From positions 2,666,001 through 2,730,000 of the forward strand of contig NZ_CP083582.1 in the NCBI RefSeq assembly GCF_020091585.1: a stretch of 64,000 nt of DNA, in the 5' to 3' direction. Both the position numbers and the translations under genes were made by a program. The notes below the pieces were generated by a model. The model did no database searches and was not told where the DNA came from. It saw nothing but the letters and a program-made list of their open reading frames with translations. This DNA is from Kovacikia minuta CCNUW1. GTDB lineage: Bacteria > Cyanobacteriota > Cyanobacteriia > Leptolyngbyales > Leptolyngbyaceae. Every line of letters starts with the position of its first letter. Positions within the stretch are counted from its first letter, which is position 1. This document shows positions 2,931 through 54,557 of the stretch, one piece after another.

Positions 2931-3369
2931 CTTTTCTGCCCGTTAGGGAATAGCCTGCTTTGCTGGCTTAGTTTTGCAGCACTGGAATGTTTTTCCGATT
3001 AAGGTGAACGATCAGTGGTGTAGGGCATAGCTCAACAAGGTAGGCTTCTTTTTTTGTGCTAATCTTTTTCCGCGTAGCTCTGGCTCCCCCTCTCTTTGTC
3101 ATTTCCGCTCACTCCCGAAGCATCTAGATGTGTTCCTCTGGTGGTACACTCCTCTGGAGATTCAAGCTCCTGTTTCCACAGGGAAGTAGGGCAGGTCGGA
3201 GAGAGTCTTCTAGAAATTGCTCCAGGGGGTTGCTATTTCACGATTCATTGACTTTAATGGTTAAAACTTTTTCAATAAAAGTAAGTTCTTTTTTGAATCC
3301 TCCTGTTTTGGAACGTTCAGAGATAGAGTCTTTTTATTTGTTGCTTGCTGCTAGAGCGGATCGAATTCT
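2931..3369. other. 439-bp non-coding stretch after psaM
   Basis: No convincing gene is seen here. A weak hairpin with AGCC/GGCT arms about 30 bases after psaM, followed by TAGTTTTG, may end the psaM message. A small frame at 3128-3403 has no recognisable content and is treated as spurious. The stretch presumably carries the promoter of the gene at 3370. Confidence 0.4.
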
Positions 3370-3768
3370 ATGTACGCACTTAAATCGCCCCAACCCGATC
3401 TAAAACCCACTAGACGTGCCCATCGGGCTTCCAGGGCGCATGTCCGCCATCGCAAGAATCCTTATCAGGAGATCGCGATCGAAACCTCGATTAAACTTAC
3501 CGTGAATCTCCTCCTCTCGGTGGTTGCGGTTATCGCTTTAACTAAGCTTCTGTCCTACAAGGTGACCCAGGAAGCCAAGTTGCAGGAATTGAATGTAGCA
3601 GTCAAAACCACCGAGGGCCGGGTTCAAGTCGTCCGCTCTAATTTCAAGCAATATTTTGACTCAAATCAGGCAAGCACCCTGATGCAGCAGCAGACCAACC
3701 GGATCGATCCCTCCCAGCGGCAAATTATCTGGAAACTACCTGGCAAGGGCGAACGACCCAATCAATAA
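3370..3768 (+). CDS. Conserved single-pass membrane protein, unknown function
   Basis: I do not recognise a named family beyond a conserved cyanobacterial protein. The 132 residues start with a basic, proline-containing tail (RRAHRASRAHVRHRK), followed by one hydrophobic helix at about 40-62 (TVNLLLSVVAVIAL) and then a polar segment with heptad-like spacing to about 100. The layout of basic cytoplasmic tail, one helix and a coiled-coil outside resembles the small bitopic division proteins FtsL/DivIC, but that is topology only and not evidence of homology. It converges on the RNase II gene. Confidence 0.7.
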   Translation: MYALKSPQPDLKPTRRAHRASRAHVRHRKNPYQEIAIETSIKLTVNLLLSVVAVIALTKLLSYKVTQEAKLQELNVAVKTTEGRVQVVRSNFKQYFDSNQASTLMQQQTNRIDPSQRQIIWKLPGKGERPNQ

Positions 3769-3889
3769 CAGAGTTCAAGAATGGCAAGAGGGTGGGAGAG
3801 TAGGGAATGCCCGCTGCCTCATCCTCTTGCTCCCACTATATTCTCTATCCTTTCTCAATAAAACTGCCGACAGCTTTTAAGGCAAAAGC

Positions 3890-21977: not shown

Positions 21978-22250
21978 CGGGCAGGTGCCCGGTTGCAAGA
22001 GATGATAGGGAGTCTCTATTTGTGCCAAGGCAGAAGGCAAAGGGCAGAAGGAAAGAGGACAGCACACATCATCACTGAAACCCCTGGTCAAGATGGTTTT
22101 CTGAAAGATCCATCAGCAATGACTTTTGCAATCTAAGAATATCGAACAGCTCGCAACGATTGCTACGGCTTTGGCGGCAACGACCGATCGCCAATCCAAG
22201 ATGCTGGAACAGATGATGCGGGAGCCGAGGCGGTAAGGGATTAGCGTATA
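21978..22250. other. Non-coding stretch with a possible short gene remnant
   Basis: A heptamer patch (GGCAGAA/GGCAAAG type) lies at 22028-22055. From about 22121 to the TAA at 22234-22236 the plus strand is open and encodes NIEQLATIATALAATTDRQ and a MLEQMMREPRR tail. This looks like the end of a helical protein but has no usable start. It may be a decayed gene beside the MITE. Confidence 0.25.
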
Positions 22251-22340
22251 AGAACCTATCCGAAAACCTCAACCTCCTTTGGCGAATTCCAGGTAGGGTG
22301 GGCATTGCCCACCCTACGAAAGGATTTGCGGATAGGCTTT
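22251..22340. mobile_element. MITE-like element, copy 1 (90 bp, TA flanks)
   Basis: The ends are inverted repeats, AGAACCTATCCGAAAACC on the left and the complement of AAAGCCTATCCGCAAATCC on the right, flanked on both sides by TA (22249-22250 and 22341-22342). Inside is a palindrome with 12-bp arms GTAGGGTGGGCA around one base (22293-22317). A nearly identical copy in the opposite orientation lies at 54434-54522. TA targets and this size fit a non-autonomous relative of IS630/Tc1-type elements. No transposase is in the window. Confidence 0.75.
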
Positions 22341-22966
22341 TAGATCTGACAAATCGCTTTGAGCACCTGAAGCAGTTGAATGGCACGATCACGGTCAATC
22401 AAATTCACTTCTGGTAGCAGTTGATAGATAGAGGGATTTGCCGATTGCAAATAGGCAAATCGGTAGCTCACCCCATTGGTTGTTAAAGCCCAAACCGATT
22501 CTTGCTGTTTTAGCCCTTCAAACGCATAGGTCAGAAGTTGGGGGAGTCCTGCCAGAGAATCTATCTGGCTGTTTTTTGCTTCAATCACCAGCACCCAAAA
22601 ATAGGGAGCTTTGTGCCTGTTAATTGCCAGCAGATCGAGCCGTCCACTGATGGTAGTATCTTCGTCAGCGATCGTAATCTCAGCTATATCCTGTTCCAGT
22701 AGGATTTGAATCGGAGGACGGTAAAACCCTGCTAACCGCAACAATGGAGCCAACACCAACAATTTCACCTGTCCTTCAGCCACTTTTCCTGCATTCAGGT
22801 AGTAACGGAAGTCATTCTGAATCTGGCTAATCTCCTGCTGCTCGAATTCTGTTAATGGCTCCAGCGCTAGCAATTCCGTAAACGAAAGGTCATCAGAATC
22901 TTCCTCTAGCTTCAACAACTGGTGAACCTGCTCCAGGGTCAAATTTTTTGCATTTAGAGTAACCAT
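22340..22966 (-). CDS. PD-(D/E)XK nuclease-like protein (restriction-enzyme R-subunit-like)
   Basis: The 208 residues have a helical N-terminal third (LTLEQVHQLLKLEEDSDDLSF split over two helices). A core then shows GRLDLLAI, 15-20 residues, and VLVIEAKNS, the Asp ... Glu-x-Lys pattern of PD-(D/E)XK nucleases near residues 123-146. Cyanobacterial proteins of this kind are often labelled restriction endonuclease subunit R N-terminal domain because the fold resembles HsdR. The TAA stop is made of the last base of the MITE plus its TA flank, so the C-terminus may have been cut by insertion. It is divergent from the gene at 23081. The DNA target and activity are unknown. Confidence 0.65.
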   Translation of the reverse strand: MVTLNAKNLTLEQVHQLLKLEEDSDDLSFTELLALEPLTEFEQQEISQIQNDFRYYLNAGKVAEGQVKLLVLAPLLRLAGFYRPPIQILLEQDIAEITIADEDTTISGRLDLLAINRHKAPYFWVLVIEAKNSQIDSLAGLPQLLTYAFEGLKQQESVWALTTNGVSYRFAYLQSANPSIYQLLPEVNLIDRDRAIQLLQVLKAICQI

Positions 22967-23080
22967 CTTTTATGGGTGAAGGGTGAGGAGTGAGCCATTG
23001 ATCATCGCCTATTGCCCAAAGTTGGGAAAACTAGAGGTAAATTGATTCCAATCCAGCCTCTACCAACTTCATTTTCACTC

Positions 23081-23491
23081 ATGTCAACCCGTGGCGAAGT
23101 GTTGATCGCCATTCTAAATAACCAGGAAGACCTGACCATTGCCCGTGAGCAGCACTGGTATCGGATTCCCGTAGAACAGGTTGAAAAGCTAAAAAAGCGA
23201 GGCTACTGGTCTCCCAGGTGGGTGGCGTTTTACCAGACTAAAGTGTTTGGAGCCGAATCGCACACGATTAGCTACTACGCTCAAGTAAAAGGAATTCGTG
23301 AGGTTTACCGTTGGGAACTGTTCCCCGAACAGCCCAGAAATGCCACAAGTGACAAGCGCTACTACAGGCTGGAACTGTCGCCACTGGAGAAACTTTCACC
23401 ACCGATCGTGAGTAAACGAATTCGTCGTATCACTTTTATTGCAAGCACCTGGGAAAATTTTCGAAATGCCGGAGAAATTAATGATTTGTAG
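23081..23491 (+). CDS. Unrecognised protein in the 22-24 kb accessory patch
   Basis: I do not recognise a named family. The ATG at 23081 gives 136 residues beginning MSTRGEVLIAILNN; the longer frame to 23012 is less likely. The sequence is rich in Trp, Tyr and Arg (QHWYRIPVEQVEKLKKRGYW, WVAFYQTKVFG, SYYAQVKGIREVYRWELFP), which suggests a compact beta-rich fold with an exposed aromatic surface, as in small nucleic-acid-reader domains. That is an inference from composition only. It is divergent from the nuclease-like gene (115 bp between starts) and nearly touches the next gene tail to tail. Confidence 0.6.
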   Translation: MSTRGEVLIAILNNQEDLTIAREQHWYRIPVEQVEKLKKRGYWSPRWVAFYQTKVFGAESHTISYYAQVKGIREVYRWELFPEQPRNATSDKRYYRLELSPLEKLSPPIVSKRIRRITFIASTWENFRNAGEINDL

Positions 23492-23493
23492 GA

Positions 23494-23970
23494 TTAAGAG
23501 TTGTATAGCTTCTCAGCTATGTAATTTTGAAATCCTTCTAATCCTCCACTACTGTCCCATTTCTCACGAAATCTCTTCAGATTGATTATTTCGTGTGGAT
23601 CTCCATCCTGAAGTGCTGGATCAAATCCAAGGAAATCAGATTGAGGAAGGATTTCTTCCCAATTTTTAAGGTCAGGTTTCCACCAAATTACTTTAACGAG
23701 CCGATGGAACCAATCACCACCAGAATAGTAGTCATTGTCAAGAATTTGAACGATATGAGTCAGCTTACCATTCTGGATTAATGCCATCTCATCTTCTGCT
23801 TCGATGTTCTTAGCTGGTTCCCTTCTAAAGCCCAACGGGAAGATAGTAACTCCATTTTGATCTAGAACATAATGGCTCATCTTTGATAAGTGAGCAGGCG
23901 TATACGCCCACTTATCAAGATCTCGAATAACTTTGATCCATCTCAGCTTAGATAGGTTGATTTTTTTCAT
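23494..23970 (-). CDS. Unrecognised protein, AT-richer than its neighbours
   Basis: The 158-residue protein begins MKKINLSKLRWIKVIRDL and has no family I can name. It contains many Trp and Tyr residues (DNDYYSGGDWFHRLVKVIWW) and ends with a helical tail (FREKWDSSGGLEGFQNYIAE). The coding sequence is visibly richer in A and T than flanking genes, a sign of recent acquisition. Its stop lies 3 bp from that of the gene at 23081, so the two converge. It could be a partner or an immunity-type protein of the adjacent genes, but nothing in the sequence proves that. Confidence 0.6.
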   Translation of the reverse strand: MKKINLSKLRWIKVIRDLDKWAYTPAHLSKMSHYVLDQNGVTIFPLGFRREPAKNIEAEDEMALIQNGKLTHIVQILDNDYYSGGDWFHRLVKVIWWKPDLKNWEEILPQSDFLGFDPALQDGDPHEIINLKRFREKWDSSGGLEGFQNYIAEKLYNS

Positions 23971-23998: not shown

Positions 23999-25165
23999 TC
24001 ACACCTTAGACAAAGCGGGTTTTAGAGCTAATCTTTCCAGGACTTGCTTCAGCACCATTGCCGTCCAATCGATGTCTTCTTCGGTCGTGTCCCGTCCCAG
24101 GGTGAGGCGAATGCCTGACTTGGCAACCCGATCGCTAAATCCCATTGCCTGCAAAATGGGGCTGGGCGTGACCTTGCCGCTGTGACAGGCGGAACCAGCG
24201 CTGATACCAATACCTGCCAGGTTCATTTGACGCACCAGGGCTTTGCCGTTCAGCACTTCGTCATCGGCATACTGGACACAAAAACTGACGTGATGGGGTA
24301 ACCGGTGGATACGATCGCCGGTCGGCACCAGCCCTGGAGTTTCCGATAGGAGGGCAAACAGGCGATCGCGGAGCCGAATTAACCGGGGAGTCTCGAACAT
24401 CATTTCCTGGGCAGCTAGTTCTGCGGCAACCCCAAAACCCGCAAGGATGGGCACTGCTTGCGTCCCGGAGCGCAGCTTCGATTCTTGCCCACCTCCTCCC
24501 AAAAGCGGTGCAATTTTTACCCCTGGACGGATGTACAGTGCCCCTGCCCCTTGAGGACCGTAGAGTTTGTGACTGGAGAGGGAAAGCAAATCTACAGGCA
24601 ACTGCTGCATATCCAGCAGTAGCCGTCCCGCCACCTGAACGGCATCTGTATGAAAAAGGGCACCGTGGTTGCGAGCGATCGTCCCCAGGGTTTGAATCGG
24701 TTGAAGCGTACCCACTTCGCTTTGACCGTAAATGATAGATACCAGTACCGTATTGGGTTGTAACGCTGCCTGAAGATCCAGAGGATTCACCCGTCCCTGC
24801 CGATTGACGGGCAACCGGGTAACCTGCCAGCCCAACTGCTCCAGCCAATGTACGGGTTCTGCAATTGCCGAATGCTCCACACTGGAAACAATGATGTGTT
24901 GGGGGTGGTTATACTGGCGAACCACACCTGAAATTGCCAAATTGTCGGCTTCAGTCCCACCCGATGTGAAGACGATCGATTCGGGTGGCGCATTAATTAA
25001 ACGGGCAACCTGCACCCTGGCACGTTCAACAATGGTTGCCGCCCGTTGTCCCCAGACGTGCAGACTGGAAGGGTTGCCCCATTGGGCAGTCATCACCTCC
25101 TGCATGGCTGCGATCGCCTCTGGGCGAGTGGGCGTAGTCGCGCTGTAATCCAGATAAATTTGCAT
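23999..25165 (-). CDS. Cysteine desulfurase (NifS/IscS type)
   Basis: This PLP enzyme takes sulfur from cysteine for Fe-S clusters and thio-modified tRNA. The 388 residues show the N-terminus YLDYSATTPTRPEA, the PLP-contact SVEHSAIAEPV and the PLP lysine in SLSSHKLYGPQGAGALY near residue 203. The mobile-loop catalytic cysteine lies in ISAGSACHSGKV near residue 329. The loop length fits class I (IscS/NifS) rather than SufS. It stands alone between the accessory patch and rpaB, so there is no local clue to its acceptor. Confidence 0.95.
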   Translation of the reverse strand: MQIYLDYSATTPTRPEAIAAMQEVMTAQWGNPSSLHVWGQRAATIVERARVQVARLINAPPESIVFTSGGTEADNLAISGVVRQYNHPQHIIVSSVEHSAIAEPVHWLEQLGWQVTRLPVNRQGRVNPLDLQAALQPNTVLVSIIYGQSEVGTLQPIQTLGTIARNHGALFHTDAVQVAGRLLLDMQQLPVDLLSLSSHKLYGPQGAGALYIRPGVKIAPLLGGGGQESKLRSGTQAVPILAGFGVAAELAAQEMMFETPRLIRLRDRLFALLSETPGLVPTGDRIHRLPHHVSFCVQYADDEVLNGKALVRQMNLAGIGISAGSACHSGKVTPSPILQAMGFSDRVAKSGIRLTLGRDTTEEDIDWTAMVLKQVLERLALKPALSKV

Positions 25166-25309: not shown

Positions 25310-26047
25310 TTAAATTTTTTCGTTTTCGCCTGGTTCGATGATGCGCTGGAACAGATAGCCCGTACCCCGTGCAGTCAGGATCAGTTCTGGATTGCTGGGG
25401 TCATCTTCCAACTTGGCGCGTAGCCGAGAAATGTGAACATCCACCACACGGGTATCCACATGGCGCTCTGGGGTATAGCCCCAGACTTCCTGGAGAATTT
25501 CAGAGCGGGAGAAGGCTTCCCCAGACCGACTAACCAGTAGTTCCAACAGGCTAAACTCCATGCCAGTCAGACGGATACGCTCGTCCCCTTTATAGACCTG
25601 GCGCTTATTGGTGTCAATCCGGATACTATTGATATGAATAACGCCGGAACTGGGAATTCCAGTTGTGCCTGTCTTTTCTACCCGCCGCAAAACAGAGCGG
25701 ATGCGTGCTTCCAGTTCTTTGGGAGAGAAGGGCTTCACAACATAATCATCCGCTCCTAACTCCAGTCCGGTGATGCGATCGGCAACATCGCCCAAAGCAG
25801 TCAGCATGATAATTGGAACATCCGATTCCTTCCGAAGCTCCTGGCAAACCCCATACCCATCGAGTTTTGGCATCATCACATCCAAAACAACCAGATCGGG
25901 GTCAGCGTTGCGAAAAGTATCCAGGGCTTCTTCCCCATCCGCCGCAGTTACCACATCGTAACCAATCATTGAAAGGCGCGTTTCAAGAATCCGACGGATA
26001 CTTGCTTCATCATCAACGACGAGTATCTTTTCCTTGTGATTTTCCAA
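25310..26047 (-). CDS. rpaB: OmpR-family response regulator RpaB
   Basis: RpaB is the essential cyanobacterial regulator (ycf27 in plastids) that binds HLR1 boxes at photosystem I and high-light genes, with histidine kinase Hik33/NblS upstream. The 245 residues have a receiver domain with acidic pocket VVDDEAS and phospho-Asp in VVLDVMMPKLDG near residue 56. The switch Thr lies in MLTALGD and the Lys in VKPFSPKELEAR. After a short linker comes the winged helix (LTGMEFSLLELLVSRSGE, then HVDTRVVDVHISRLRAKLE). Length and sequence separate it from the similar RpaA. It is divergent from radA. Confidence 0.95.
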   Translation of the reverse strand: MENHKEKILVVDDEASIRRILETRLSMIGYDVVTAADGEEALDTFRNADPDLVVLDVMMPKLDGYGVCQELRKESDVPIIMLTALGDVADRITGLELGADDYVVKPFSPKELEARIRSVLRRVEKTGTTGIPSSGVIHINSIRIDTNKRQVYKGDERIRLTGMEFSLLELLVSRSGEAFSRSEILQEVWGYTPERHVDTRVVDVHISRLRAKLEDDPSNPELILTARGTGYLFQRIIEPGENEKI

Positions 26048-54301: not shown

Positions 54302-54433
54302 GTGGTAGGTGGTAGGTGGCAGGGAAGAGTATAGAGGATGGGTATCCATTTGATCGCTTAGGGGCTTGCGGAGAAATAACATCCCCATCCCCTCATCCAC
54401 CCGTCTACCCTCTTCAAGCTGAGATTTGACTTA
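54302..54433. repeat. Heptamer array after the PhoD-like gene
   Basis: Three GGTGGTA units at about 54300-54325 follow the GGGGATA units at the stop codon. The rest of the stretch to the MITE copy is ordinary sequence. Confidence 0.65.
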
Positions 54434-54522
54434 AAGTCTATCCGAAAACCCTTTCGTAGGGTGGGCATTGCCCACCCTACCTGGAATTCGCCAAAAGAGG
54501 TTGAGGTTTTCGGATAGGTTCT
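54434..54522. mobile_element. MITE-like element, copy 2 (89 bp, TA flanks)
   Basis: This is the reverse complement of the element at 22251-22340, with only a few differences. Its ends AAGTCTATCCGAAAACCC and GGTTTTCGGATAGGTTCT are inverted repeats flanked by TA at 54432-54433 and 54523-54524. The inner 12-bp-arm palindrome GTAGGGTGGGCA is intact. It lies in an intergenic space between the PhoD-like gene and the pyrophosphorylase gene. Confidence 0.75.
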
Positions 54523-54557
54523 TAGGAATGAGAATTAAATAACTTCGGCATTCTCCT

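Follow-up and report, generated by a model that had tools for sequence, protein, structure and literature searches.

The window, the whole 64,000-nucleotide stretch of Kovacikia minuta CCNUW1 analyzed here (contig NZ_CP083582.1), carries three small genes, called A, B, and C, between a MITE-like element and a gene for cysteine desulfurase (Table 1). The sequence bears out what an earlier note had read from the letters alone about the lengths and orientations of all three reading frames, the desulfurase gene bounding them on the right, and the AT-rich dip over C, where GC reaches a minimum of 0.386 compared to about 0.50 to 0.57 around it. Since each frame has relatives elsewhere, all three are more than chance open frames. 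B opens with the ATG at 23081, the same Met that its relatives use, and the stop codons of the convergent genes B and C lie 2 bp apart. The inverted-repeat element on the left is present as claimed, but with only one other near-complete copy in the genome (94%, window positions ~54430-54524), two in total, the label "MITE" is plausible only for a low-copy element.

Table 1. Genes and sequence features in and around the three-gene block
Feature	Position	Strand	Remarks
MITE-like element, ~95 bp	22249-22342		left of A; imperfect 18-nt terminal inverted repeats, perfect 12-nt central palindrome
A, putative HsdR-like PD-(D/E)XK protein, 208 aa	22340-22966	-	PADLOC match, family in cyanobacteria
B, stand-alone PUA-superfamily (EVE/YTH-like) predicted modified-base reader domain, 136 aa	23081-23491	+	structural model and fused relatives
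Truncation point of B, TTG TAG	23486-23491	+	fusions have Leu-Trp (TGG), then nuclease linker INDL-W-D/N-D/E-SPLED
C, AT-rich protein, 158 aa	23494-23970	-	no Pfam family; between B and desulfurase, at the expected place of the nuclease half
Cysteine desulfurase	23999-25165	-	conserved right neighbor of B
rpaB-type regulator	25310-26047		after desulfurase
radA	from 26296		after rpaB-type regulator

The description of A as a PD-(D/E)XK-like protein is borne out in part. The D...ExK...Q motif typical of HsdR-like nucleases can be read by eye in its translation (GRLD...VIEAK...QLLTYA), and A matches PADLOC PD_DExK at 3.1e-6, while its match to Pfam HSDR_N, at 12.4 bits, falls under the cut-off of 25.1. 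Relatives occur in 71 of 292 sampled cyanobacterial genomes and at ten places in the window's own genome. By its sequence, A appears to be an ordinary member of a multi-copy cyanobacterial HsdR-like family.

The family of C is found in 13 of 292 genomes by sequence and in 28 of 386 by profile. Structure prediction from the single sequence gave a pLDDT of 42.6, too low for a confident fold, and profile-profile comparison found no similarity between B and C. Elsewhere, the C-family domain is fused behind a TIR domain (L038:59-2010), with an adjoining TIR-GUN4 protein that could possibly form a TIR sensor pair with it; it follows an HTH in another protein (L036:6892-7680), and in two distant cyanobacteria a MerR-like/vWA gene pair adjoins it (L037:1903-5096 and L046:2157-5033). 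These contexts hint at a sensory module. A search of phage, plasmid, and viral collections returned one relative of C, on a Picosynechococcus plasmid, and none of B, viral contigs included. A 989-residue frame containing the C domain in another genome was rejected as an artefact of masked sequence.

Single-sequence searches, Pfam, PADLOC, and PDB among them, assigned B to no family, and PDB sequence searches with B and C, single and by profile, gave no convincing match. Structure prediction and fold search, proposed earlier as a check, were run for B. An AlphaFold2 model from a 62-row alignment reached a pLDDT of 91.9 and a pTM of 0.84, and its nearest solved folds were MJECL36 (Z 9.2), ASCH (8.6), and YTH domains (8.0-8.4), followed by the reader of the EVE-HNH restriction enzyme VcaM4I (8.0) and an archaeal McrB reader (6n0s; 7.8). 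The model has the five-stranded mixed beta core and PUA-type topology of the PUA superfamily, an assignment that holds at superfamily level only: the matches to MJECL36, ASCH, YTH, VcaM4I, and PH1033 (Z 8.0-9.2 over about 104-120 residues) combine Z of 8-9 with 9-14% identity, which fixes the superfamily and not EVE versus YTH, and a Z below 8 may reflect a shared arrangement only. Scores for EVE, YTH, and ASCH are nearly tied. No Pfam PUA-type family (EVE, YTH, or ASCH) matched any of the 62 B-family members; one member matched PADLOC HEC-01B weakly (0.0014), and a search of a viral structure library gave weak matches only, to ASCH/EVE-type and unnamed phage proteins.

Judged from the model, B is predicted to have the PUA-superfamily (EVE/YTH/ASCH) fold of modified-base readers, so the earlier suggestion that the partners could be DNA-reader domains survives for B, at the level of fold. 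Several of the proteins matched by the model read modified bases. For MJECL36, the top match, m6A binding was not detectable (PMC6112328), and fold alone therefore does not show what B does. Conservation adds detail: W26, Y27, P30, F50, Y51, F56, and F119 are found in 62 of 62 rows, D17 in 61, and N13 in 57. In the fold, N13 closes the first strand, D17 belongs to the first helix, and W26 opens the second strand.

The relatives of B provide the link to nucleases. A GTDB genome scan yielded 66 loci in Cyanobacteriota, Chloroflexota, Pseudomonadota, and other phyla, whose proteins fall into two size groups of about 270 and about 140 aa. In 43 of them (Chloroflexota, Gammaproteobacteria, and some cyanobacteria), the reader is part of a full fusion to a DUF559/MTES_1575 PD-(D/E)XK nuclease. 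The second half of one 268-aa cyanobacterial relative matches REase_MTES_1575 (2e-10) and DUF559 (8e-9), exceeding the Pfam cut-off in each case; across the loci, DUF559 exceeds its cut-off in L033, L051, and L062 and MTES_1575 in L033 and L051. The nuclease motifs D173 (of LDFA), E186, and G189 are present in 43 of 43 full fusions, and D188 is present in 39. These 43 relatives, as read from their sequences, have the layout of a modification-dependent restriction endonuclease, with reader and nuclease in one protein and with binding and cleavage as predicted activities. The window's B lacks this layout, and no nuclease was found downstream of it. The combination of reader fold and nuclease-fused relatives supports a modification-sensing origin for B, the part of the earlier proposal that stood, and the fused family is a source of untried candidate modification-dependent nucleases.

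Fusions in Competibacteraceae (L083, L089, L090, and L092) share a recurrent context near genes for peptidase-like (M16-type by eye) and sulfate-adenylyltransferase-like proteins, which is stable rather than island-like.

The point at which B ends is precise. Its reading frame closes with ...EINDL-TAG, where the fusions continue with ...EINDL-TGG, so that the stop stands at the position of the first linker residue, a Trp. True short forms are restricted to Leptolyngbya-type cyanobacteria; besides the window, 17 other cyanobacterial loci have a short form with an open frame, and tblastn found no nuclease downstream of the true short forms. Short copies of Chloroflexota type (L061, L081, and L082) and cyanobacterial L059 were rejected as stand-alone forms because they are frameshifted fusions. 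The full fusion at L051, which has 71% identity to the window in the reader domain, is the sister of the short form at L054 and shares its locus. Alignment of the two DNAs runs as far as the junction and resumes just past the nuclease, which argues that the nuclease was cleanly deleted in L054 at the same locus. Trees in which the short forms arise only once were rejected (p-AU 0.0003), and one origin was likewise rejected for the 12 short rows within the window's larger clade (p-AU 0.022). The nuclease was lost at least two independent times in Leptolyngbya-type cyanobacteria, a count that draws partly on MAG contigs. Methylation of HIP1 (background in PMC4390886) as the force behind nuclease loss was considered and rejected, as HIP1 and CGATCG are enriched near fused and stand-alone copies alike.

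Pairwise dN/dS is 0.07-0.12 between short forms and 0.15-0.16 between fused forms, and pairs with the window's B give 0.08 (L051) and 0.16 (L054), values that describe pairs and not the window's own branch. Nuclease-less forms of B are under strong purifying selection, with dN/dS of about 0.1 between relatives. As the reading half is conserved despite the losses of the nuclease, B probably still binds something.

B also occupies a site with a history of its own. The order B-desulfurase-rpaB-radA recurs, whole or in part, in the window and at L051, L054, L057, L059, L097, and L110, and the neighbors corresponding to A and C vary among genomes, which contradicts the picture of the block as an acquired island. 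On the other side of B, ftsH is found in eleven loci; its orthologue in the window's genome lies 1.6 Mb away, so the link is frequent yet not required. About 30 bp separate the end of the nuclease from the desulfurase gene at L059. At L051, a remnant of the desulfurase tail (2973-3045) directly follows the nuclease, on the far side of an open reading frame at 3061-3792, which suggests that this frame entered the desulfurase gene by insertion close to its end. In the window, the interval of 508 bp between B and the desulfurase gene is filled by C, and C appears to have replaced the nuclease half of B.

We consider it likely that B is what is left of a two-domain modification-dependent restriction endonuclease, a reader kept as a binding-only protein after loss of the nuclease, with A and C as unrelated neighbors. 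The ancestor would have joined the reader to a DUF559/MTES_1575 PD-(D/E)XK nuclease in one protein; the nuclease half would then have been removed at the domain boundary in several Leptolyngbya-type lineages, the window's included, while the reader was retained and C came to sit at the former place of the nuclease. From this history and the fold, we infer base binding, a ligand, and a present role for B: most likely, it still binds a modified base without cutting, with the conserved N13, D17, and W26 lining the putative pocket that takes up the base, and it may serve as a sensor, competitor, or regulator that acts on nucleic acid of the host or of foreign origin. A bolder extension, which we regard as tentative and rather doubtful, is that the reader was freed from its nuclease several times within one cyanobacterial group and recruited to read or compete with host marks, such as the methylated GATC/CGATCG of HIP1.

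One alternative is that B is a decaying, functionless remnant of a restriction enzyme after nuclease loss. A stop at a Trp codon truncates it, nucleases have been lost repeatedly, L059 holds a frameshifted copy, and recent loss followed by decay would be compatible with pairwise dN/dS that does not isolate the window's branch. Against this stand the number of short forms that remain open, the low dN/dS between nuclease-less relatives, and the retention of invariant pocket-type residues, and we regard decay as unlikely. Still less probable, in our judgment, is that B works in trans by recruiting a nuclease encoded elsewhere, possibly a protein of the A family. There is precedent for PUA readers and nucleases cooperating as separate subunits (PMC7897488), and A-family proteins are at hand in the same genome; however, that genome yielded no homologue of the lost nuclease half, A never adjoins B elsewhere, and A is common in genomes without B.

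The distribution of the three genes agrees with A and C being unrelated neighbors of B. The earlier note had proposed a modification-sensing defence module and had listed a lack of co-occurrence elsewhere among the results that would refute it. Nowhere beyond the window do two of the three genes share a locus, among 75 loci with B, 27 with C, and 20 with A (counts that include overlapping fetches), and no other locus or sampled genome holds all three. Neither B nor C lies beside the closest relatives of A, and among 292 cyanobacteria B and C share no genome but the window's, a count that leaves out a fourth B match (G286), a fragment interrupted by a stop. With A and B divergent and B and C convergent, the three do not form an operon. 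A module in which A cuts while B and C read modified DNA would account for a nuclease-like protein, a reader fold, and a family fused to TIR or HTH elsewhere lying side by side, but it is very improbable given this lack of co-occurrence and of an operon and a site for B that is older than A and C, where relatives show ftsH on the side of A and the nuclease or other genes on the side of C. The absence of co-occurrence and the history of the site identify A, B, and C as unrelated neighbors and not a module.

To our knowledge, very few dedicated modified-base readers are known in bacteria. Readers without a cutting partner are candidates for bacterial epigenetic regulation, and if B does read host marks, it would be a bacterial epigenetic reader. 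Because close relatives carry fused and nuclease-less forms, which in the pair L051/L054 even occupy one shared chromosomal site, nuclease loss under selection on the reader is directly testable.

Among known systems, VcaM4I offers a close parallel in layout. Like this EVE-HNH enzyme, the fused relatives of B begin with a PUA-superfamily reader of about 140 residues, behind which comes a nuclease; the model of B matches the VcaM4I reader over 113 residues, and N13/N14, D17, and W26 of B lie in the same parts of the fold as VcaM4I Q10/T11, E15, and W22 (PMC7897488). Unlike VcaM4I, the relatives carry DUF559/MTES_1575 PD-(D/E)XK instead of HNH, and the window's B has no nuclease. The resemblance to YTH domains extends from the fold scores to the order NN..D........WY, which by our own reading recalls N363/N364, N367, and W377 of YTHDC1 (PMC6112328); both this pairing and that with VcaM4I follow position in the fold rather than residue-level superposition. 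A second cage tryptophan was not located in B, there is no significant Pfam YTH match, and the window's B stands alone. The fusion itself follows a known type of architecture, YTH-like domains joined to PD-(D/E)XK nucleases having been described by Bell et al. in 2020 (PMC7641849). As far as the searched literature shows, what is new is the family of B, together with the recurrent loss of its nuclease exactly at the junction. The cooption of a reader has a precedent in PcdA of Staphylococcus, an EVE reader protein derived from an McrB restriction system (PMC10602043). Compared by description rather than directly, both proteins keep a modified-base reader fold after losing a nuclease partner, but PcdA still has an AAA+ domain, in degenerate form, and functions in cell division, whereas B is a bare reader.
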